From contig CALXKJ010000018.1 in assembly GCA_944388955.1 (NCBI GenBank), positions 1-40,492 on the forward strand: a DNA stretch of 40,492 bases. Direction: 5' to 3'. This DNA is from an uncultured Spirochaetaceae bacterium (lineage in GTDB: Bacteria; Spirochaetota; Spirochaetia; Sphaerochaetales; Sphaerochaetaceae). Position 1 is the first letter of the stretch, and each line of letters opens with the position of its first letter. Below, piece after piece: positions 6,336 through 38,931 of this stretch. The position numbers were made by a program, and so were the translations under genes. Below the pieces are notes generated by a model. The model was not told the origin of the DNA. It made no database searches and saw only the letters and a program-made list of their open reading frames with translations.

Positions 6336-7592
6336 ATGAAGAAAAATCCAAGAACGCCGAAAGAGATCTTAGTTATAGTCATTTCAGCTGTGCTTCTTGT
6401 TGCTTCTATCATCCTGCTCGGGCTCTGGACAAAAGCCCTGACGAGAGAAGAGAGAAGCAATATGCTTCGCTTAGCGCTCTCTGAGCTTGTTGAAGAAGAG
6501 GGCGAAAGAGGACTTCTGGAAGCCGCAGGTGTTCCTGTTGATGATATCCATTACAGCTATGAGGACCTTCCTCTCTTTGCTGGAGACAGGCCCGTCTGGG
6601 AATTCACAGATGAGGAGACGCGCTCTGCCGCGATTTACCAGAAGACGGCACCATCTGTTGTGCAGATAGTCTCAGCATCCGAGCTCTCCGATGCAGGACA
6701 GGGCGCTGGTGTGATAATCTCAGGCGATGGCTATATAGCAACAAACCGCCACGTTGCAGGCTCCTCTTCATCATTCATCATCAGATTCTATGATGGAAGT
6801 ACCGCAACGGCTTCTCTGGTAGGCTCTGACCCGCTCTTGGATATTGCCGTCCTGAAAGCCGATAAAGCTGGTCTCGATGATATCGATGTTGGCTCATCAA
6901 AGGATCTTGGCATAGGCGCATCTGTCTTTGCCATAGGCCATCCTTATGGTTATACATGGTCGATGACAAAGGGCATTGTCTCCGGTCTCGAACGTATGGT
7001 TTTCAGCGATAGCGGACTTGTCATTCCGTCGCTCATACAGACGGATGCTATCATAAATCCTGGCAACAGCGGTGGTCCGCTTGTCTCTTCATCAGGCCTG
7101 ATGGTTGGACTTGTCAGCTCTATCTATTCACGCTCAGGCTCTGCTGAAGGCATTTCCTTCGCAATTCCCGCAGAGCGCGTGATGGCATCCGCTGAGGCTA
7201 TCATAGAGACAGGCTCTGTGCATCGTGGCTGGCTCGATATCCTTTCCGTGGAGCTGAATGAGCAGATTGCTGATTACTCATCCCTTGATGTCAGGAAAGG
7301 CATTCTCGTGTCACAGGTTGTCCCTGGCGGCAATGCCGATAAAGGTGGCATACGCGGCGGTAGGGAAGCTGTGCAGTACGGGCAATCAGTCATCTACCTT
7401 GGCGGTGATGTCATTACAGCGATAAACGGCAGGAAGATCGAGAGTTATGAGGATTATTTTGCGGTTCTCTTCGATACAGTTCCTGGAGAGACTGCTGATG
7501 TGACAGTCATCAGGAATGGCAGGGAGATCACTCTTAAAGGAGTAACTCTCTCTGAGCAGACGGAGGACAATTCAAGATGGCTGATCAGGTAA
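6336..7592 (+). CDS. htrA: HtrA/DegP-type membrane-anchored serine protease
   Basis: A trypsin-like S1C protease that degrades misfolded proteins outside the inner membrane. One membrane anchor lies at residues 11-30. The catalytic triad is complete: His139 in TNRHVAG, Asp169 in LLDIAVLK, Ser245 in NPGNSGGPL. A single PDZ domain follows from about residue 300 to 405. With one anchor and one PDZ domain it resembles DegS more than the two-PDZ DegP, but a substrate or sigma-factor pathway cannot be inferred. Residues 31-95 form an extra, acidic segment between anchor and protease domain. The last 16 bases overlap the start of uvrB, so the two genes are translationally coupled. Confidence 0.93.
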   Translation: MKKNPRTPKEILVIVISAVLLVASIILLGLWTKALTREERSNMLRLALSELVEEEGERGLLEAAGVPVDDIHYSYEDLPLFAGDRPVWEFTDEETRSAAIYQKTAPSVVQIVSASELSDAGQGAGVIISGDGYIATNRHVAGSSSSFIIRFYDGSTATASLVGSDPLLDIAVLKADKAGLDDIDVGSSKDLGIGASVFAIGHPYGYTWSMTKGIVSGLERMVFSDSGLVIPSLIQTDAIINPGNSGGPLVSSSGLMVGLVSSIYSRSGSAEGISFAIPAERVMASAEAIIETGSVHRGWLDILSVELNEQIADYSSLDVRKGILVSQVVPGGNADKGGIRGGREAVQYGQSVIYLGGDVITAINGRKIESYEDYFAVLFDTVPGETADVTVIRNGREITLKGVTLSEQTEDNSRWLIR

Positions 7593-9643
7593 AGAAGGAT
7601 TACACAATAGCCGGTGAGCCATTCATAAATTTCCAGGCGGGATTCTCGAAACCTTTCCATGTCGTCTCTGATTACGATCTTGCCGGAGATCAGGGAGAGG
7701 CTGTGGAGAGACTCTATCAGGGGTATCTTGCTGGTGATAGAGCGCAGACACTCAAAGGTGTAACAGGCTCTGGAAAGACATTCACGATGGCCAAGCTCAT
7801 TGAGAAAATCCAGAAGCCGACTCTTGTGCTTTCACATAACAAGACGCTTTCGGCACAGCTTTACAGGGAATTCAAGTCATTCTTCCCTGAGAATGCGGTG
7901 ACGTATTTCGTCTCCACATATGATTATTACCAGCCAGAGGCATATGTTCCCGGAAAAGATCTGTACATCGAGAAGGAAGTCGATATAAACGATGAGATAG
8001 ACAGGCTCAGGCTCAATGCTTCCTTTTCGCTTATGGAAAGGCGGGATGTTATTGTAGTGGCTACTGTCAGCTGCATCTACGGTCTTGGCAATCCTGTATC
8101 GCTCAGGGATATGCTATTCACATTCCGTGTCGGCGATGATTTCAGCCAGAATAAAATCTTCCCTCAGCTTACGAGAATGCTCTACGAAAGGAATGACATG
8201 GTTCTTAATCGCGGTACATTCAGACCTCGAGGGGAGACAGTGGAAATCTATCCCGCATATCTTGAGACCGCATTCAGGATATATCTAGACTGGGATACAA
8301 TCTCAGATATCGTGTGGTTCAACCCTCTGACAGGAGAGCGTATCTCATCTGTTGATGTTGTGACGCTTTATCCTGCAAAGCAGTTTGTGATGCCGCAGGA
8401 CCAGATCAACGCGGCTATTGATAGAATCAACGCGGAGAAGGAAGAGCGTGTACAGTACTTCCTTTCAAACGGCAAGCCTGTCGAGGCTGAGCGTATAAAA
8501 AGCCGTGTCGAATATGACCTCGAGATGCTTCAGGAAGTGGGGTATTGCTCCGGTATAGAGAATTATTCCAGACCGCTTTCAGGCCGTCAGCCAGGAGAGC
8601 GCCCAGCGGTGCTTCTCGATTATTTCCCTGATGACTTTGTCACATTCATCGACGAGTCCCATGTCACGCTGCCTCAGATAGGCGCCATGTATGAAGGTGA
8701 CAGGTCAAGAAAGCTCAATCTCGTCAATTATGGCTTCCGTCTTCCCTCCGCTCTCGATAACAGGCCTCTCAAGTACGAGGAATTCGATAATAAAGTCGGT
8801 CAGCGCATATATGTCTCAGCTACTCCCGGGGAGCGTGAGAAGAAGGAATCCGCTCAGATAGTCGAGCAGCTCATAAGACCGACAGGACTTCTTGATCCAT
8901 CGATAGAAGTCAGGGCCACGGAAGGGCAGATGGAGGATCTCTATGGGGAGATCAGGAAGACCATAGAGAAGAATGAGAGGGTTCTTGTGACAACGCTCAC
9001 AAAGAAGATGGCCGAGGATCTGACAGAGTATCTTTCGAATCTTTCGCTTAAGGTAAGATACCTTCATTCTGAGGTTGAAACCATCGAGAGAGTCGAGATT
9101 CTCCGTGACCTCAGGCTTGGCAGATTCGACGTGCTTGTCGGTATAAACCTCCTCAGGGAAGGCCTCGATCTCCCGGAAGTGTCGCTTGTCGCTATTCTGG
9201 ATGCTGATAAAATAGGTTTCCTGAGAAGTGCCACATCACTGATACAGACTATCGGAAGGGCAGCGCGAAACGCTGATGGCCGTGTCATCATGTATGCGGA
9301 CAGGGTAAGTGAGGCGATGGCGGAGGCTATCGCGGAAACAGAGCACCGCAGAAGCGTGCAGATGGCATATAACAAAGAGCATAACATCACTCCTAAGACA
9401 ATCAAGAAGGCTGTTGAGGATATCCTCGAACGCGAGAAGGCTGATGACGAAGCTGTAGCGAAGGAGGAGATGAAGATAATCTCCTCCAGCTACAATCTTC
9501 TTGTTGAACGCGACAGGAAGCGTTATATCGCGGATCTCACGCGGCAGATGACAGAGCTTGCCAAGAATCTGGAGTTCGAGAAAGCCGCGCTCTTAAGGGA
9601 TGAGATACAGCGCATCAAGGAGCGTAAGGACCTTGAGTCATGA
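7577..9643 (+). CDS. uvrB: UvrABC excision nuclease subunit B
   Basis: UvrB is the damage-verifying helicase of nucleotide excision repair; it is loaded by UvrA and recruits UvrC. The 688-residue product has Walker A GVTGSGKT at 61-68, the beta-hairpin region with STYDYYQPEAYVP, helicase motifs with the DEAD-like IDESH, the conserved GINLLREGLD and QTIGRAARN, and the C-terminal UVR motif (around FEKAALLRDEI) that binds UvrC. GGAGGA stands nine bases before the ATG, within the end of the protease gene. The stop codon directly abuts the stop codon of the convergent caspase-like gene: the six bases TGATCA hold both. Confidence 0.98.
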   Translation: MADQVKKDYTIAGEPFINFQAGFSKPFHVVSDYDLAGDQGEAVERLYQGYLAGDRAQTLKGVTGSGKTFTMAKLIEKIQKPTLVLSHNKTLSAQLYREFKSFFPENAVTYFVSTYDYYQPEAYVPGKDLYIEKEVDINDEIDRLRLNASFSLMERRDVIVVATVSCIYGLGNPVSLRDMLFTFRVGDDFSQNKIFPQLTRMLYERNDMVLNRGTFRPRGETVEIYPAYLETAFRIYLDWDTISDIVWFNPLTGERISSVDVVTLYPAKQFVMPQDQINAAIDRINAEKEERVQYFLSNGKPVEAERIKSRVEYDLEMLQEVGYCSGIENYSRPLSGRQPGERPAVLLDYFPDDFVTFIDESHVTLPQIGAMYEGDRSRKLNLVNYGFRLPSALDNRPLKYEEFDNKVGQRIYVSATPGEREKKESAQIVEQLIRPTGLLDPSIEVRATEGQMEDLYGEIRKTIEKNERVLVTTLTKKMAEDLTEYLSNLSLKVRYLHSEVETIERVEILRDLRLGRFDVLVGINLLREGLDLPEVSLVAILDADKIGFLRSATSLIQTIGRAARNADGRVIMYADRVSEAMAEAIAETEHRRSVQMAYNKEHNITPKTIKKAVEDILEREKADDEAVAKEEMKIISSSYNLLVERDRKRYIADLTRQMTELAKNLEFEKAALLRDEIQRIKERKDLES

Positions 9644-10528
9644 TCAGAAGCTGAAAAGCACGAGATCCAGCGGGAGAAGCGTTGCCTGAGGCGATGCAGC
9701 TCTCCTTAAATCTGCAGGCATGCTCTTTCTCACTTCATTCACGATATCATAGAATGTGATATCCCCTCCGTTTCCGGGAATCGTGGCTTCTTGGCTGTCA
9801 GTGTTATAGCCAAGAGCTCTGAGAAGGTAGTATGTGAACGCCCCATAATTTTCATCTGTGTAGCTATCATAGGATAACTGCTCAGATGTGGCTGCTGTGA
9901 AGGCCCAGATTTCAGTATTCTCTGCATTGGAGGAGAATGATTTTTCTATAGCTGGTATGATGGAATTGAGGATGCTGTCAGAGACAAGCTCGTTGTCATC
10001 GAATCTCTCACCGCTTGTGAGAGCTCCCTTATCCTCAATGAGATTCCCTGAATAACATGAATCGATGAAGAGGCATTTCTTGCCATCGATTAGCTTCAGT
10101 GTTTCTATAAGCTCCTCCGGATATAATCTAGCATTTTGGCTAGGTCCTGGTGCGAAAGCCCCGCTTCCTTCCTCTCCATGTCCAGAGTAGTGGAAGATGA
10201 TGAGATCGTATGATAGTGTTTCGAGGCCTATGATGGTGTTGAGTATATCATCGGAAGTCCATTCTTTTTCGATGCCGTTGACTGTCCTTTTGCCATCTGC
10301 TTCAAGAAAGAGGTACTCCTCATAGTACTCGCCGCTCTCTGTAGCAAGGATTTCTATTTCCTCAGATAGCGCTTTCTGGTCAGCAGGCGGTGTATCAAGG
10401 CTTTGGAGTCCTTCTGTGCAGGAGTAATCACTTGCGACGGAGATGAAGATTACTTTCCCATGCTGTATTTCCCCTCTGCATGATATTAGCGTAAGCATGA
10501 CTGAGATGAGTATCAGGAGCTTTTTCAT
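9644..10528 (-). CDS. Caspase-fold (C14) lipoprotein
   Basis: A 294-residue predicted cysteine peptidase of the caspase/metacaspase fold. A lipoprotein signal peptide ends at Cys17 (LTLISC), so the enzyme should sit on the periplasmic or outer face of a membrane. The catalytic His117 lies in FHYSGHG and the catalytic Cys158 in LFIDSCYSG, each after a hydrophobic strand as the fold requires; a third conserved strand, EIWAFTAATSEQLSYD, and the GAFTYYLLRAL helix follow. These are the standard landmarks of bacterial C14 peptidases, which cleave after basic or acidic residues; specificity cannot be read here. Its start overlaps the stop of the upstream barrel-like gene by four bases (ATGA), so the two are translated together. 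It is convergent with uvrB with no bases between. Confidence 0.88.
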   Translation of the reverse strand: MKKLLILISVMLTLISCRGEIQHGKVIFISVASDYSCTEGLQSLDTPPADQKALSEEIEILATESGEYYEEYLFLEADGKRTVNGIEKEWTSDDILNTIIGLETLSYDLIIFHYSGHGEEGSGAFAPGPSQNARLYPEELIETLKLIDGKKCLFIDSCYSGNLIEDKGALTSGERFDDNELVSDSILNSIIPAIEKSFSSNAENTEIWAFTAATSEQLSYDSYTDENYGAFTYYLLRALGYNTDSQEATIPGNGGDITFYDIVNEVRKSMPADLRRAASPQATLLPLDLVLFSF

Positions 10529-11058
10529 TTCCCACCTCCCAGAACAAATCTCAGCCCTATGCCAGCTGTGAAATCAAGCGCATTGCCGCCGTAGTAGAGA
10601 GTAAGAGGAATTGAGATTGCCATGAAATCAAGAGGGAAGAACAGCGCTGATAGGTTCCCGCCAATGCTCCAGCTTCCTCCGCTTGCTTTATGATACCATC
10701 TGTATCTTACGCCACCTCCGCCTTCTATGAGAAACTTCTCTGAAATGTGAAAACCATATCTGAGCGAGAGGGACGCTGTGAAAGAGTCTGCCATCTGCAT
10801 TCTGTCATTGATATCGGATGAAGGTCTGTAACCGATGGAAAAAGGCAGGGAAAACTCATGATGATTTATCTTCATCGCAAGAGGATTTGCTTCAGCCTCA
10901 AGAAATGTGGATGACCATATCGATCCTGTCCTGTCCAGTGCTTTGCTGAAGTCCGTGGCTGAATAAGACGCATTCACGCCTATGGATGGATTCCAGGAAA
11001 CTCCGGCATAGACGATTGATGTTGTCAAGAGCGTTAAAATCAAGATTACTCGTTTCAT
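10525..11058 (-). CDS. Small secreted outer-membrane-type beta-barrel protein
   Basis: A 177-residue protein with a cleavable signal peptide (about residues 1-18, ending VYA). The mature part is built of short alternating aromatic/hydrophobic strands, for example SFTASLSLRYGF and LDFTAGIGLRFVLG, and has Gly-rich turns, as in small outer-membrane barrels. There is no C-terminal Phe. I recognise no named family. A good AGGAG is five to six bases before the ATG. It is the first gene of a two-gene unit with the caspase-like lipoprotein (ATGA overlap), which suggests the two proteins act together at the envelope. Confidence 0.7.
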   Translation of the reverse strand: MKRVILILTLLTTSIVYAGVSWNPSIGVNASYSATDFSKALDRTGSIWSSTFLEAEANPLAMKINHHEFSLPFSIGYRPSSDINDRMQMADSFTASLSLRYGFHISEKFLIEGGGGVRYRWYHKASGGSWSIGGNLSALFFPLDFMAISIPLTLYYGGNALDFTAGIGLRFVLGGGK

Positions 11059-11105: not shown

Positions 11106-12089
11106 TTATTGAGCAATATTCTGCATACTTGCCGCAAGGATCATCAGCGAAACATGTTTTTTCCTTGGCTTTGTGTGGCTGAGTGAGAGCATCGGGTAGC
11201 CTTGATACTCCATGCCAAGAAGATAGCCTGATCCCATAAAGGCCTCTGATACCACCTCTAAATCGTTGAAGATCACATGCATCGGATAAAGCTCCGGATC
11301 AAGCGGCTCTTCAGAAAGCACGGCATCCTCAGGGCGGAAGAAGAGATACCCATCAGTATTCTCATAGACAAGATATGCCGGTATTGCCGTTCCCTCGCCT
11401 GTGAAGAAGGCGGTGAAAAGTGATTCAGGATGCCTGTAAAGCTCCTCGGCGTTGCCTTTTGCGACTGCTTTCCCGTCATGCATGATGAGAATGGAATCGG
11501 AAATCGTGAACGCCTCCTCCCTGTCGTGTGTGACATAGAGCATGGTAATCCCCAGCGTGTCGTGGATGCTGCGTATAGCGCTCCTTATGCTTTTTCTGAG
11601 CGGGGGATCGAGGGCTGAAAGCGGTTCGTCGAGAAGGAGCATCTTCGGCTCAGCCGCAAGGGCTCTTGCAAGCTGCACGCGCTGTGCCTCTCCGCCAGAA
11701 AGCGAAGTCACCGCTCTTTTCTCGTAGCCTTCGAGTCCTACAAGCTTCAGAAGGTTGGACGCAAAGCGTTTCCTGTCAGCTTTCTTCTCGGTCTTCATTC
11801 CATACTCGATATTCTTCTCGACATTCATCGAAGGAAAGAGCGTGAAATCCTGGAAGACAATCCCGATATTCCTGTCCTGTATTCTTTCCGATGTGATGTC
11901 CTTTCCATCGAGGATTATCGAGCCGCTTGTGGGTGTGTCTAGGCCTTCGATGAGCGAGAGCAATGTGGACTTGCCAGACCCTGAAGGCCCTATGATGCAA
12001 AGGAATTCACCTTCTTCCACAGAGAAAGAGGCTGAAAGCGTGAAATTGTCATATTCCTTTGTAATATCCTGTATTTCAAGATATGCCAT
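11106..12089 (-). CDS. thiQ: Thiamine ABC transporter ATP-binding protein
   Basis: The ATPase of the thiamine/TPP importer ThiBPQ. The 327-residue product has Walker A GPSGSGKS at 34-41, Q-loop at FQD near 79-81, the ABC signature LSGGE at 130-134, Walker B LLLLDEP at about 150-156 and the switch His in YVTHDREEA. The C-terminal third resembles the regulatory TOBE-type extension seen in Fe/sulphate/putrescine-type importers. The frame is open for 32 codons further upstream, but GGGAGG eight to ten bases before the ATG at 12089 and the start of family homology (YLEIQDITKEY) fix this start. It overlaps the permease gene by 14 bases. The thiamine assignment comes from the operon and its riboswitch. 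Confidence 0.9.
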   Translation of the reverse strand: MAYLEIQDITKEYDNFTLSASFSVEEGEFLCIIGPSGSGKSTLLSLIEGLDTPTSGSIILDGKDITSERIQDRNIGIVFQDFTLFPSMNVEKNIEYGMKTEKKADRKRFASNLLKLVGLEGYEKRAVTSLSGGEAQRVQLARALAAEPKMLLLDEPLSALDPPLRKSIRSAIRSIHDTLGITMLYVTHDREEAFTISDSILIMHDGKAVAKGNAEELYRHPESLFTAFFTGEGTAIPAYLVYENTDGYLFFRPEDAVLSEEPLDPELYPMHVIFNDLEVVSEAFMGSGYLLGMEYQGYPMLSLSHTKPRKKHVSLMILAASMQNIAQ

Positions 12090-13698
12090 TGTTTCCTCCC
12101 TTTTCCCCGATGGCAAATACGATGAGAGCTTCAGCAAGGAGAATAGTGCCAAGCGCCGCCGCTCCCTGGTAATCATATGAGCCAATAAGCCTGTATATGA
12201 GTATAGGCAGTGTTGTTATATGGCCATCCGAGAGCGTAAGCGTTGCGTTGACTTCTCCCAGCGACAGCGCGAATGAGAATGCGAATGCTTTCTTTATATA
12301 TGGCCTGAGAAGCGGCATTTCAACCCTTCTCATTGTCTTTCCCATTGAAGCGCCTAATGTGTAGGAGGCTAGAGATAGCGTTGGTGAAATCGTTCTCGCG
12401 CCAGGTGTAATCGTACGTATCGAGAAAGGAAGCACGATTATAAGATGCGCAAGGAAGACAAGAAGATATGAGACTATAGTGGATGAATGCGGTATATATG
12501 CGGCAAGCATTGAGAATCCTAAACCGAGTGTGACGGATCCAGCCGCCATCGGAAGCGTTGCCAGAAATGGCATCAGCCTTGAATTCTTTCTTGCTGAGAG
12601 CATTGCCATGGATGACGCGAGGATGATAGCTGCGGCAGATGCGAGGAATGCTATGACAAAGCTCATCACGATACCTTCCATCGCTGTTGATATCAGGCCA
12701 AAGCCTCCGCCAAGTATTTCTTCCCAGGCGCGGAGTGTGAAGACTCCGTTTTTCGTGAAGAAAGCCCTGTAGAGTATCGAGAGAAGGGGAGGAAGAAGGA
12801 AAAGGAGCATCACGATAACGCATAGATAGATTGCAAATAGCGTCTTTCCTCTGCCTTTGATAAGCTTCCTTGTCTTTCTTTCAGTCTTTATTTTCGCCCG
12901 CCCATAGCCTGAAGCGAGGAGCAGGATGCCTGTTATCGCGAATGATATGAGCGATAGTGATGCACCTCCTGCTGTATCCCCTGATATCCTCGCTCTTCTG
13001 TATATTTCCGTCTCAAGTGTCGTGTAGCTTGGGTTTCCTCCAAGCACCATGATTATCGCGAATGATGAGAAGCAGAAGAGGAAAATGAGTATGAATGCAC
13101 TGATGACGCTGCCTTTGATGGATGGCAATGTGACAGAGAAGAATGTTCTTCTTATGCTCTTGCCAAGTGTATATGAGGCTTTTTCCGCGACATCAGATGA
13201 GGCTGTCCATGCTTCTGTGATCAAAAGGAAAGCAATCGGGAAATTCAGGTAGACATGAGCGAGTATGATTGCCTTGAAGGAGTAAAGTATCTCCAGCACA
13301 GGCTCCTTTGAGCCGGAAATCCTCATGAGGAGCGTATTCAGCAATCCGTTGTTCCCGTACCATATTACAAAGCCAAGTACTACAAGAATCGTTGGAATCG
13401 TGAACGAGAGTGCAGATAGCGTCATGATAACTTTTCGCCCAGGGAAAGTGTATTTCGAGAAGATATAAGCAAATGGGAATGCCACTATCACTGCGATAAG
13501 CGCAGAGAGCCCCGCTTCTGTCACTGTGAAAAGGATAATCCTGTATGTATAGCTGTCGCTTATTGTGTTTATCAGAGCTGAGGCGTTATCTGAGAGCGCG
13601 TAGCTGAAAACGACAGCTATAGGAATAAGGAACAGCAGTAGCAGTATCAGAATACCCGGAAGGGATCTCAGTGTGTAATACGCTTGCTGTTCCTTCAT
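12076..13698 (-). CDS. thiP: Thiamine ABC transporter permease, two fused membrane domains
   Basis: A 540-residue inner-membrane permease with about twelve hydrophobic segments arranged as two BPD_transp_1 halves, as in ThiP and the iron permease FbpB. Each half carries an EAA loop that docks the ATPase: around EKASYTLGKSIRRTFFSVTLP in the first half and LASYTLGASMGKTMRRVEMPLL in the second. Length is close to ThiP of enterobacteria (about 536). It lies 12 bases after thiB and overlaps thiQ by 14 bases, so all three are one operon under the TPP riboswitch. Confidence 0.9.
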   Translation of the reverse strand: MKEQQAYYTLRSLPGILILLLLFLIPIAVVFSYALSDNASALINTISDSYTYRIILFTVTEAGLSALIAVIVAFPFAYIFSKYTFPGRKVIMTLSALSFTIPTILVVLGFVIWYGNNGLLNTLLMRISGSKEPVLEILYSFKAIILAHVYLNFPIAFLLITEAWTASSDVAEKASYTLGKSIRRTFFSVTLPSIKGSVISAFILIFLFCFSSFAIIMVLGGNPSYTTLETEIYRRARISGDTAGGASLSLISFAITGILLLASGYGRAKIKTERKTRKLIKGRGKTLFAIYLCVIVMLLFLLPPLLSILYRAFFTKNGVFTLRAWEEILGGGFGLISTAMEGIVMSFVIAFLASAAAIILASSMAMLSARKNSRLMPFLATLPMAAGSVTLGLGFSMLAAYIPHSSTIVSYLLVFLAHLIIVLPFSIRTITPGARTISPTLSLASYTLGASMGKTMRRVEMPLLRPYIKKAFAFSFALSLGEVNATLTLSDGHITTLPILIYRLIGSYDYQGAAALGTILLAEALIVFAIGEKGGNNGIS

Positions 13699-13710: not shown

Positions 13711-14718
13711 TTATCGTGTCATTGTATCAAGCCAGAGCTGAATCAGCTCCTCTGTCTTCTCTGGCGATACCTGTCCACTTGGGAAAAGCTTATCAGGCTT
13801 TGGCGCATAACGGAAGGCATCTGGAAGCTCTGCTGCTGAGGATGCGGGATACATGGAATTCGCTACCGCTATCTCCGTCTGGCCTTCGGAGAGGATGAAG
13901 TCGATGAATGCCTCGGCTTCTTCCCTCATGTCTGTGCCTTTGATGATGCCAATTCCTTCGATAGTCGCCTCATGGCCTTCTGGGAATACAAGAGCCTCGT
14001 AACGTGTCGTGTTCTCGTTCATCACATGATAAACAGGGCTGGTTGTATATGAAAGCACGATAGGAGCTTCACCTTCTGTGAAAAGGCCATATGCGGAAGA
14101 CCAGCCATCAGCTACAGTAAGCGCGTTGTCCTTCATCGCTTCCCACCAAGCCACAAACTCGTCACCATCGCCAAAGATTGTGTATGACCATAGGAGAAGT
14201 CCAAGTCCTACGGTTGAAGTGCGTGGGTCAATGAGAATCACCTTGTTCCTGTATTCTTCAGATGCGAGATCCTCAAGGGACTCCGGTCTTCTTATTTCCG
14301 ACTCACTGTCGAAAACGAAAGCGAATGCGCCATAATCGAATGGTATGAGCCTGTGTTCTGGATCGAATTCCAGCTCATCAGGTATATTCTCGAGCATCGG
14401 TGACTCATAGGGCTCCAGCAGCTCATATGCCTCATACGCCGTGTCATCTGTCACTCCGAGTATGACGTCAGCATCTGTCCTGTCTCCTTCCATCTTCACG
14501 CGGTTTATCATCTCGCGTCCGTCTCCTGCACTGACAAGATTGACTTTTATACCAGTTTCTTCCTCAAAGCGGGGTATAAGCGAGGCTCCTGGTCCCCAGT
14601 CACCGGCAAATGAGTCGTATGCATAGACTGTGAGCACATTCTCATTCTCCTTCGGTGCGTTTGCCGAAAGTGAGATTGCTGAAATGAGAATCAGCATGAA
14701 TACGAGAGTCTTTTTCAT
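13711..14718 (-). CDS. thiB: Thiamine-binding periplasmic protein
   Basis: The solute-binding component that delivers thiamine, TMP or TPP to ThiPQ. The 335-residue protein has a signal peptide (about residues 1-20) and matches known ThiB landmarks strongly: YDSFAGDWGPG near the mature N-terminus, PFDYGAFAFVFD, IDPRTSTVGLGLLLW, GWSSAYGLF, VLSYTTSPVYHV and MYPAS near the C-terminus. AGGAG stands seven bases before the ATG, directly downstream of a TPP riboswitch, so its expression is expected to fall when TPP is plentiful. Confidence 0.96.
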   Translation of the reverse strand: MKKTLVFMLILISAISLSANAPKENENVLTVYAYDSFAGDWGPGASLIPRFEEETGIKVNLVSAGDGREMINRVKMEGDRTDADVILGVTDDTAYEAYELLEPYESPMLENIPDELEFDPEHRLIPFDYGAFAFVFDSESEIRRPESLEDLASEEYRNKVILIDPRTSTVGLGLLLWSYTIFGDGDEFVAWWEAMKDNALTVADGWSSAYGLFTEGEAPIVLSYTTSPVYHVMNENTTRYEALVFPEGHEATIEGIGIIKGTDMREEAEAFIDFILSEGQTEIAVANSMYPASSAAELPDAFRYAPKPDKLFPSGQVSPEKTEELIQLWLDTMTR

Positions 14719-14743
14719 AGATTTTCTCCTGAATTGGATTATC

Positions 14744-14831
14744 CAAGGGAATGCCTTTCCTTCGCTAGAATTACCTAGAGCAGGTTCAAGGGTATTCTTC
14801 TCAGGCTATAATGCCACCCCTAGACGCCTTG
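14744..14831 (-). promoter_or_regulatory. TPP riboswitch (THI element) controlling thiBPQ
   Basis: Read on the minus strand, the leader contains the conserved TPP-riboswitch blocks in the right order: GGGGTG (14815-14820), CCTGAGA, ACCCTTGAACCTG, GGTAAT and GCGAAGGAA (ending at about 14757). A CAAGG at the 5' side can pair with CCTTG at 14744-14748 to form the closing P1 stem. Downstream, TTGGAT and ATCCAA form a small inverted repeat at 14734-14746 just before the AGGAG, so control is more likely at translation initiation than by a terminator, since no T-run hairpin is visible. Binding of TPP should switch the importer off. Confidence 0.95.
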
Positions 14832-22648: not shown

Positions 22649-23061
22649 TATCTTCTTCCTCTTGTGATATCTATATTCCTCGAGCCATCATCCGATATCG
22701 TGATATCCACAAAGATGGTGTTGTCAGGAAGCATGTCATCGATTTTCTCTGACCATTCAATGAGGGTTATACCATCGGGATACAGGAATTCCTCTCCACC
22801 CATCGACTCGAACTCGTCATCTCCTGATAACCTGTAGAGGTCGAGATGATAAAGTTTCTCGCGACCGCTGTATTCCTGGACAATCGTGAAAGTGGGGGAG
22901 ACTATCGCCTCTGTTATTCCCAGTGATTCAGCAATGCCTTTCGCAAGCACTGTCTTTCCGGCTCCGAGTGAGCCGCGGAGGGATACGACATCGCCTTTTC
23001 TGAGGCTTTCCCCAAGTTTCCTTCCTTCCGTTTCCGTCTCAGATGCACTCAGGCTTCTCAT
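22648..23061 (-). CDS. tsaE: tRNA threonylcarbamoyladenosine biosynthesis ATPase TsaE
   Basis: ATPase that drives the TsaBDE complex in t6A synthesis. I take the start at 23061, giving 137 residues: that ATG overlaps the stop of the TPR gene as ATGA, and the extra 13 upstream codons are the Ser-rich shadow of the TPR gene end. Walker A is GSLGAGKT at residues 30-37, followed by VSPTFTIVQEY, the HLDLYRL strand and IEWSEKI, all standard for the family. Co-location with tsaB confirms the assignment. Confidence 0.94.
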   Translation of the reverse strand: MRSLSASETETEGRKLGESLRKGDVVSLRGSLGAGKTVLAKGIAESLGITEAIVSPTFTIVQEYSGREKLYHLDLYRLSGDDEFESMGGEEFLYPDGITLIEWSEKIDDMLPDNTIFVDITISDDGSRNIDITRGRR

Positions 23062-24338
23062 AGTTCTTCCTCGTGATGATGATGGTGATGGCAGCTGCAC
23101 TCTTCGGGTTCAGGGATACCGTCCTTCTCGATTTCAGCAATCTCCGCCGCGTATGCGTCGTCATCCTCATCTTCTTTATCGTGGTCGTCATGCACGATTT
23201 CCTCGTGTATGATTTCTCCGATCTTCTCACCTGTCTTCTTCTCATACTCATCGATGAGATGTTTTATGATCTCATCGTTTCCGGATAAGTATCTCGCTTT
23301 CTCCAGATACTCTCTAGCGCTATCGTAATCACCATCCTGAAGATAGAGATATGAGAGATTCGAAGCTACTGTAAGATTCTCAGGGTCAAGATCCGCCGCT
23401 GTCTCGAGGTATGTCTTCGCAAGCTCCCTGTCCCCGATTTCAAGCTCTGAGATTGAGAGCTCGTTGTAGATATCAGCGGAGCGCTCGCCAAGCTCAAGGC
23501 ATTTCATCAGATTCTTTCTCGCTTCCTCATAGCGGCCTTCTTTTCTCAGTGCCCATGCCTTGAGGAAGTATCCATTCCATGTATCAGGATTCTGATTTAT
23601 AAAGCGTTCTGCTGCCTCTATTGCTTTGCCTGTCTCCCCGAGCATGATGAAGTCATAAGCTTCCTTTATATCCTCGTCGTTCTGGAGCTGTATCTCGATT
23701 TTGTGAAGCAGCTCCTTCATCTCCTGCTTTTTTGCGCCTTCGCTGGCAATCGCCATGTACCTGTCGAGATAATCCTTTGCCTCTTCCAGATTGCCAGTGA
23801 ATGCCTCGAATGAGGAAAGCTCGGCAAGGATATCTTCATTCTCACCGAAGCGCCTGAGGCCGTCCTTTAGAGTGCCTTTGGCTCTTAGGAGATATTCATC
23901 TTCCTTCTCCTCGTCGCCTTTCTCCTCGGCGTCTACTGCCATTGACGAATAGAGCGTTGCGAGGTTTATGCATGATGCAGTCTGAGGAAGCAGATGGTAG
24001 ACAGCCAGAAAAAGCTCTTCGCTGAACTCGTAGTCCTTCTGCTCCTCCTTGGCTATCGCGGCCTTGTTGAGATTCTCAGGCAGCGTAGGATCGACAGTCA
24101 TCACGAAATCCTTGTAGTAGGAAGCATTGATGTTGTTCTCGTCATACGCGATGACAGTGAGCATTCCTGAAACAATGGCCTCAAGCGTTATGTCATCTGC
24201 CTTGAGCCTTGTCTCTCCAGTCTTGAGCTGTACAGGAAGCATGATGTTCTCATCGAGTCTGAAACCTTCGCTCTCGATTCTCATTCCCTCTGGAACCTTG
24301 ATGTATCTTAATGATCTGAGGCTTTCTTCCCTGTTCAA
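23058..24338 (-). CDS. TPR-repeat protein with acidic and histidine-rich C-terminus
   Basis: A soluble protein of 426 residues with no signal peptide. After an N-terminal beta-rich domain of about 110 residues it contains several helical TPR-type repeats, clearest near residues 270-375 (for example GYFLKAWALRKEGRYEEARKNL, cut here as one unit, and SELEIGDRELAKTYLETAA). The C-terminus is acidic and ends in CSC, six His, then EEEL, a likely metal-binding tail. The open frame extends 82 codons upstream, but this runs across the 6S RNA gene. I place the start at the TTG at 24338, since TGAGGTG lies four to five bases before it; the GTG at 24350 lacks any ribosome site. First gene of the tsaE-tsaB-trxB operon. 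Function unknown; a scaffold is the usual role of TPR domains. Confidence 0.75.
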   Translation of the reverse strand: MNREESLRSLRYIKVPEGMRIESEGFRLDENIMLPVQLKTGETRLKADDITLEAIVSGMLTVIAYDENNINASYYKDFVMTVDPTLPENLNKAAIAKEEQKDYEFSEELFLAVYHLLPQTASCINLATLYSSMAVDAEEKGDEEKEDEYLLRAKGTLKDGLRRFGENEDILAELSSFEAFTGNLEEAKDYLDRYMAIASEGAKKQEMKELLHKIEIQLQNDEDIKEAYDFIMLGETGKAIEAAERFINQNPDTWNGYFLKAWALRKEGRYEEARKNLMKCLELGERSADIYNELSISELEIGDRELAKTYLETAADLDPENLTVASNLSYLYLQDGDYDSAREYLEKARYLSGNDEIIKHLIDEYEKKTGEKIGEIIHEEIVHDDHDKEDEDDDAYAAEIAEIEKDGIPEPEECSCHHHHHHEEEL

Positions 24339-24351
24339 TTCGCACCTCACA

Positions 24352-24521
24352 GAAAAAGTCCTATAGAACTGGCTGCTGGTTGCTCTTGAACTAGTGTTCA
24401 AGGGGGGATCCTTGGTGCCCGCTTTCTGTTCCCTTCGGGAGGGAGCAATGCCGCAAAGGCTATTCCAGACCCCGTTTATATGGTTTGCTCCAAGAGGCTT
24501 CAGATGAGCCGTTCTATAGGT
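24352..24521 (-). ncRNA. ssrS: 6S RNA (SsrS-type regulator of RNA polymerase)
   Basis: 6S RNA mimics an open promoter and sequesters the housekeeping RNA polymerase. On the minus strand the ends pair as CCTATAGAAC with GTTCTATAGG plus GGCT with AGCC, forming the closing stem; the middle is a long imperfect rod capped by CTCCC-GAA-GGGA; and the 3' side carries the small hairpin CTTGAAC-ACTA-GTTCAAG, the same position and sequence type as TTGAACC...GGTTCAAG in enterobacterial 6S RNA. TTTTT follows the closing stem as terminator tail. Total length about 170 bases fits. SRP RNA, tmRNA and RNase P signatures are absent. It is read in the same direction as the TPR-tsaEB-trxB operon and sits just upstream of it. 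Confidence 0.8.
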
Positions 24522-24523
24522 TG

Positions 24524-24540
24524 CTATGATTTTATCATAG
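24524..24540. promoter_or_regulatory. Palindrome over the 6S RNA promoter
   Basis: CTATGAT-AAA-ATCATAG (minus-strand reading) is a perfect 7-bp inverted repeat with a 3-base centre. The candidate -10 box of the 6S RNA gene, TAAAAT, lies across its centre, seven bases before the predicted RNA start. It could be an operator or merely a symmetric promoter; it lies in the space shared with the divergent gene at 24588. Confidence 0.45.
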
Positions 24541-24587
24541 ATTCGTACAGGGTGGAAGTAGTGCCTTTTCTGCTGTATCATCACTCC

Positions 24588-38415: not shown

Positions 38416-38931
38416 TCAGTACCTGAATCCAATTGACAATATCGGTGATACATAGAAATCACCAGAGAATCCAGTATCACCTGTGTCAAGATTCACGCCA
38501 AGCATGCCGTATCCCAAATTGCATCCGATAAGCAGTGCTATGGCATTATTCAGATAATAGGTTGCTCCAATGTATCCTCCGATTCCAAGATCGAATATCC
38601 CTGTACCGATATACTGCTCTGCGAGAGATGCTCCGATGGCGACATCAATTGACATCGGCACGTTTGAGAGCAGGTAACGATAGCTCGGCCCGACAAGCAT
38701 CCCAATCGCCATCGCATTGTCAGCAAGATTGAAATCAGCATTCACCGATACCATATACCCGACAGGGCAGTCATTGACATAGCCGAAAGTCTGGGATGCA
38801 AGCCCTCCCATATGCTCCCCATCTCTGAACTCATAGTTCACACCGATGCTTGTGAGACCGTCAAAAGAGGCGAAGGCTGCGCTGGCGGCTACGATTGTGA
38901 CGATTGCAATAATCAAAATTCTTTTTTTCAT
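38416..38931 (-). CDS. Small secreted barrel-like outer-membrane protein
   Basis: A 171-residue protein with a signal peptide (about residues 1-21, ending AAFA). The mature part is Gly-rich with alternating strands (IGGYIGATYYL, IALLIGCNLGYGML) and ends in an aromatic, IGFRY, as outer-membrane barrels do for recognition by BamA. GGAG is seven bases before the ATG. No specific family. It shares its general character with the protein at 10525-11058 but no clear sequence match is visible by eye. Confidence 0.75.
   Translation of the reverse strand: MKKRILIIAIVTIVAASAAFASFDGLTSIGVNYEFRDGEHMGGLASQTFGYVNDCPVGYMVSVNADFNLADNAMAIGMLVGPSYRYLLSNVPMSIDVAIGASLAEQYIGTGIFDLGIGGYIGATYYLNNAIALLIGCNLGYGMLGVNLDTGDTGFSGDFYVSPILSIGFRY

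Follow-up and report, generated by a model that had tools for sequence, protein, structure and literature searches.

Two adjacent genes in a spirochaete contig, one for an exported caspase-fold protease and one for a small barrel protein, are proposed to encode an outer-membrane protease module that is most often deployed in vitamin uptake; we assign this reading a probability of roughly 0.4. The genes lie in the 40,492-nucleotide stretch of DNA analysed here (the window), which is contig C18 of a 2.1-Mb spirochaete assembly, and they form the 3' end of a five-gene unit with the order TPP riboswitch-thiB-thiP-thiQ-barrel-caspase, a setting that was absent from the first reading of the window. 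The genes, their folds and export signals, the intact catalytic dyad, the pairing, the operon order and the riboswitch are established by computation; the anatomy of the pair is held with high confidence and its outer-membrane location with moderate confidence. For most caspase homologues of bacteria, no function is known to us.

The caspase-fold lipoprotein

The caspase gene (9644..10528, minus strand) encodes a C14-type protein of 294 amino acids that passes the Pfam cut-off for Peptidase_C14 (PF00656; 39.7 bits against 21.4, E 5.8e-10). Peptidase_C13 (legumain, PF01650) is also matched, at 25.9 bits against 22.8, through residues 105-166 only, and C14 scores better; the cut-off of the NCBIfam model for the EACC1-associated caspase (NF047832) is not reached (28.4 bits against 140). 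The signal, MKKLLILISVMLTLIS immediately followed by Cys, contains the lipobox LISC and so marks the protein as a lipoprotein. The initial annotation had placed the pair at 9644-11058 and had credited the caspase with a His117/Cys158 dyad and a lipoprotein signal, all of which agrees with our analysis.

Conservation was read from 41 aligned caspases, namely the window's copy and 40 relatives from an alignment-based search that returned 98 sequences, of which the best 80 of 98 were kept; a single-sequence search of genome contigs with the caspase gave no match. The lipidated Cys17 (codon 10478..10480, minus strand, as are the following), the catalytic His117 in the motif HYSGHGEE (10178..10180) and the catalytic Cys158 in the motif DSCYSG (10055..10057) are each present in 41/41 rows, and Leu44, Asp108 and the Gly116-His117-Gly118 run are likewise invariant. 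The invariance of Cys17 is partly circular in alignment A1, because gene starts there were chosen with the lipobox as a criterion; in alignment A3, whose starts were chosen without reference to the Cys, it is still found in 41/41 rows. Alignments A2 and A3 exclude genes cut short by a contig end, the L144 and L162 caspases among them, as well as the third L165 barrel match and the L167 barrel; A3 also excludes the L147 and L140 fragments. The residue after the lipidated Cys is Glu in 22/41 rows, Asp in 4/41 and Arg in 2/41 (window included).

The predicted model of the caspase (pLDDT 90.1, pTM 0.87) has the plant metacaspases 4 (Z 21.9) and 9 (Z 21.3) as its nearest solved folds, followed by legumain and MALT1; metacaspase 4 superposes with an rmsd of 2.5 over 214 aligned residues, and a metacaspase profile matches with an E value of 2e-14. 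The structural-neighbour lists from Foldseek and VIA are likewise headed by metacaspases, and the absence of any C25 enzyme among the matches listed carries little weight. The protein thus presents features of the orthocaspases (C14B): a His-Cys dyad in a p20 fold, seen in 41/41 rows and in the model, the DSCYSG motif, and a predicted acidic S1 pocket with two Asp residues. One of these, Asp156 (10061..10063), is invariant (41/41) and corresponds in the alignment to the Asp in the DSCHSG motif of metacaspases; the other, Asp50 (10379..10381), is present in 40/41 rows and coincides with the Asp in their LRGC-ND motif, an equivalence drawn from profile alignments and not from superposed coordinates. 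The roles of the two acids in the metacaspase pocket are taken from the excerpted text of PMC6426788. Since Asp50 and Asp156 align with these pocket acids, cleavage after Arg or Lys is predicted, and the caspase is probably an Arg/Lys-specific protease. What sets the family apart from the orthocaspases is the invariant lipobox, the outer-membrane barrel partner and the vitamin-importer operon, none of which was met with in the open-licence literature searched. Among 16 caspases checked apart, five from three genomes (L082, L084, L086, L087 and L088) are without both predicted S1 acids: Asp50 is replaced by Asn and Asp156 by Leu or Asn, and the lipid Cys, His and Cys are kept. These paralogues, of which L087 and L088 have barrel partners, probably have an altered specificity.

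The barrel partner and its coupling to the caspase

The partner gene (10525..11058, minus strand), which begins 47 nt after thiQ, encodes a protein of 177 amino acids with a Sec-type signal peptide. Its match to OMP_b-brl (PF13505) is below threshold (23.2 bits against a cut-off of 28.7); the AlphaFold2 model (mean pLDDT 95.0, pTM 0.83) has eight barrel strands, the transmembrane fold of OmpA and OmpX, and finds its structural neighbours in an OmpA model (Z 19.3), NspA (Z 18.7), OmpW (Z 17.8) and Ail. Sequence identity to these small barrels is about 9-14%. The description of the partner as barrel-like in the initial annotation is therefore upheld by the predicted model, and the structure prediction it had recommended for each protein yields a metacaspase-like fold beside an eight-stranded barrel. 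Most eight-stranded barrels whose structures have been solved do not form open pores. Elsewhere in the window (38416-38931, minus strand) lies the gene of a further small protein that is exported and barrel-like and for which NCBIfam gave no match. Relatives also have a gene for an S41 peptidase, with a lipoprotein-like signal, that overlaps the gene of an OMP_b-brl_2 barrel (L111:5057-7143 and L090:3502-5645, both minus strand), which suggests that the pairing of proteases with barrels extends more widely.

The overlap that the initial annotation had noted between the caspase start and the barrel stop is 4 nt long (ATGA), and it is exactly 4 nt in 30/40 of the barrel-to-caspase junctions listed. 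Profiles and position together place the two genes next to each other in 35/36 genomes of the genus, window included (36 genomes of Candidatus Ornithospirochaeta, a genus assigned by inference). In the sole genome without the pair, G007, the contig stops 226 nt beyond thiQ. When the window's own sequences served as queries, a caspase match was obtained in 35/36 and a barrel match in 31/36 of these genomes. Damaged copies were also met, each with one in-frame stop (the G344 caspase and the G031 and G342 barrels). Across the family, a barrel match adjoins 105/150 caspase places among the matches listed, and a share of the other 45/150 are second copies of tandem caspases or lie at contig ends. 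Caspase matches outside Spirochaetia (Saprospiraceae, Cyclobacteriaceae, Clostridia and others) cover only part of the query, and no barrel profile match was found in those loci. The initial annotation had named a failure of the two genes to co-occur in relatives as the outcome that would tell against its reading; that outcome did not arise, because the pair is conserved together.

That the two genes are chance neighbours with no shared function is accordingly a most improbable explanation. Besides the adjacency in the genus and among the listed family places, the order is reversed to caspase-barrel in G018 and G025, and the pair stays unbroken in both. What can be said for chance comes from the mirror-tree comparison of caspase and barrel (r 0.486 over 36 pairs), in which the correlation falls once species distance is removed: the partial r is 0.13 with uvrB, 0.23 with thiQ and 0.28 with thiP removed, the drop being from about 0.52 to 0.13 over 29 pairs with the uvrB control and from 0.54 to 0.28 over 30 pairs with the thiP control. 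Co-evolution of caspase and barrel beyond the species phylogeny is thus weak in these sequences.

The coupling of the two genes also bears on the proposal that the barrel is a substrate, clipped or activated by the caspase. Translational coupling at most junctions and shared export would fit such a relationship, against which stand the compactness of the predicted barrel (mean pLDDT 95) and the lack of a well conserved basic residue in its mature part: no position stands out as a cleavage site, the best ones being basic in at most 19/38 rows. We regard this explanation as unlikely.

Linkage to vitamin importers

Upstream of the pair, the window encodes on the minus strand a thiB-like substrate-binding protein (13711..14718; TIGR01254, 254.6 bits against a cut-off of 93.4), a thiP-like fused permease (12076..13698) and an ABC ATPase in the position of thiQ (11106..12095). 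The assignment to a thiamine importer rests on the ThiB subfamily match together with a TPP riboswitch, and none of the three proteins reaches a ThiB, ThiP or ThiQ equivalog cut-off: the first scores 213.9 against 317 with the thiB equivalog TIGR01276, and the best NCBIfam matches of the second are ThiP equivalogs, all below their cut-offs. The third is named by position; its best matches are ATPases of the 2-aminoethylphosphonate, ferric and polyamine types, below equivalog cut-offs, and ThiQ is weaker. An 8-kb search with RF00059 detected the riboswitch aptamer ahead of thiB (14740..14831, minus strand) at 52.0 bits and an E value of 3.3e-8, against a gathering score of 54.3; when the entire window was scanned, RF00059 gave no match at gathering level. 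Because the window match is 2.3 bits below gathering and comes from the restricted search only, the claim for the window leans on the relatives, where the riboswitch lies above gathering in 7/8 homologous loci. The convergent neighbour on the other side of the pair, uvrB (7577..9643, plus strand), is outside the unit. Elsewhere in the window (23058-24584, minus strand), a protein judged TPR-like by eye has the C-terminus ECSCHHHHHHEEEL, with a natural His6 run.

Within the genus, the thiQ-position ATPase precedes the pair in 33/35 genomes, the exceptions being G016 (contig end) and G018 (thiBPQ lost). The gap between thiQ and the barrel gene is 30-56 nt in most of the genus, 506 nt in G015 and 1248 nt in G023. 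A terminator scan gave no excess over shuffled sequences and, in the gap that separates thiQ from the barrel gene, no minus-strand terminator. The five genes may be co-transcribed.

The family was sampled evenly with 110 genomes, which hold 104 thiB places in 103 genomes. A caspase lies downstream of thiB within 9 kb, on the same strand and contig, in at least 62/104 of these places, 21 in the genus and 41 outside it; among the matches listed, a barrel match lies between thiB and the caspase in 61/62 linked places, and in 60/62 thiB is preceded by a TPP riboswitch no more than 400 nt away. The count used 104 thiB and 150 caspase rows among the matches listed, together with 114 listed barrel rows, from which weak ones not next to a caspase were omitted, and 97 listed riboswitch rows, from which most of those distant from thiB were omitted. 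Of the 42/104 places unlinked among the matches listed, several are contig ends (among them G274, G231, G430 and G404) and many are real. The same order extends beyond the family to G038 and G065 (family f4) and G101 and G064 (f3), with barrel profile matches, and to G057 (f23) and G092 (f17), in which the barrel is recognised by size, signal peptide and place only. In the class as a whole, counted separately and not as linkage, a caspase match (E 1e-10) occurs in 199/394 genomes and ThiB (1e-40) in 246/394. Two named Sphaerochaeta assemblies (L153 and L157) have the order thiBPQ-barrel-caspase-caspase with a TPP riboswitch.

A second vitamin, biotin, is touched in G202 (L220:2729-7127), where caspase-barrel comes after BioY (PF02632, E 1.1e-39), an ATPase of the ABC type and a small gene that matches no Pfam model, and in G225, where BioY, identified by similarity, heads the same order up to the caspase, after which the contig ends (L232:1817-5163). 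This linkage is probably one event, because both genomes belong to one genus (g32). Three tandem TPP riboswitch matches about 136 nt apart, all below gathering, were observed at G317:C2:472693-473063, G403:C1:835639-836009 and G219:C1:649115-649485, and also in G303, G231 and G358.

The pair is found in other surroundings as well. It lies beside typA in G407, G342, G366 and G328 and beside nifS in G292 (typA and nifS named by eye), and elsewhere too, and no riboswitch match was found at typA, nifS or other non-thi pair sites of the family; paralogous pairs sit in unrelated places. In G018 thiBPQ is lost and the pair kept, uvrB-htrA lies beside the caspase without thi in G036, G054 and G166 (the whole pair in G166), and in the one-contig genome G172 thiBPQ runs straight into uvrB with no pair. 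These five cases point to a pair that functions independently of the importer and to an importer that functions independently of the pair. A TPP riboswitch match in G018 (L130, G018:C56:3673-7446) lies ahead of a different vitamin or precursor importer, as judged by eye. Since the functionally unrelated uvrB and htrA are equally persistent neighbours, slow rearrangement could explain much of the thi linkage.

This distribution also fits a general envelope-processing pair, in which a barrel-tethered caspase trims or anchors surface proteins and its place behind thiBPQ is inherited gene order. We consider such a role nearly as likely as one in vitamin uptake. The pair persists in many non-thi contexts and duplicates as a unit, the tandem pairs in L158 and in L166 being each other's nearest relatives for both proteins, and the S41 peptidase-barrel operon of relatives is built alike. 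A further parallel is the type IX pair PorU-PorV, in which PorU is a C25 gingipain-type enzyme with a CTD and PorV is a larger barrel. As is proposed for the window's pair, the surface protease there binds an outer-membrane barrel protein and is held by it, according to the portion of PMC5562754 consulted, whereas the window's protease is a C14 lipoprotein. An inherited position accounts less well for a linkage to vitamin importers that is met again and again, in several families and also with a second vitamin, and for the short, co-directional gap that separates the pair from thiQ.

Bacterial caspases are often discussed in connection with cell death and defence, and a surface device of this kind would have the caspase act on phage or bacteriocin proteins or on its own cell. 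We consider this very unlikely: a PADLOC search gave no match up to E 1 for caspase or barrel, conservation is vertical and housekeeping-like, and the operon is shared with a vitamin importer. Surface action of caspase homologues is discussed in the part of a 2012 survey available to us (PMC3501461), which reports that a share of the caspase homologues of prokaryotes have N-terminal helices, maybe signal peptides, and that some are encoded in cell-surface operons, and in that part makes no link to thiamine. In the light of these helices, the statement in the initial annotation that most of the bacterial caspase-like proteins studied work in the cell interior should be qualified; its picture of an exported lipoprotein caspase coupled to a secreted barrel-like protein stands.

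A proposed role in vitamin uptake

In the preferred reading, a protease module serving vitamin uptake, the caspase would be exported, lipidated and held at the outer membrane beside its barrel partner, possibly in physical contact with it, and would cut after Arg or Lys. In its commonest deployment the pair would form the last two genes of a thiamine importer controlled by a TPP riboswitch, and it is proposed to be made when TPP is scarce, because of that control. It would then help the cell obtain the vitamin at the envelope: the caspase may free it from protein carriers or TPP enzymes, or may process or gate the vitamin's way in across the outer membrane, and the barrel would serve as anchor or port. 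A precedent for a TPP-controlled outer-membrane component is found in Bacteroides thetaiotaomicron, in which the product of a gene under a TPP riboswitch is a putative thiamine transporter of the outer membrane; deleting the gene has an effect in sensitised strains (PMC5613172, in part). Known thiamine uptake operons under TPP riboswitches, thiBPQ as well as OMthi and pnuT of Bacteroides, are the closest counterparts of the importer part of the unit, with the TPP riboswitch and the ABC importer as shared features; OMthi is a TonB-dependent transporter, and the text of PMC5613172 consulted mentions no protease. None of the titles and abstract beginnings listed from the open-licence PMC literature connects a caspase homologue to thiamine uptake, to a TPP riboswitch or to a barrel from spirochaetes.

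More tentatively still, vitamin acquisition may include an exported caspase-family protease as a functioning component: a TPP riboswitch would set its synthesis, a dedicated barrel would be its partner at the outer membrane, and its genes would have been coupled to thiamine and biotin importers. The operon position in gut spirochaetes hints that the caspase family can serve nutrient uptake at the bacterial surface. A whole caspase family is found here in a setting where the signal, the level of TPP, can be read and the outcome, growth when thiamine is limiting, is easy to measure; the named Sphaerochaeta assemblies belong to this lineage. If the link to vitamins is true, a family known mainly from cell death and defence would gain a nutritional, extracytoplasmic role, and a new kind of outer-membrane vitamin scavenging would be open to test; if it is false, the widespread protease-barrel pair would be a minimal surface-processing device.
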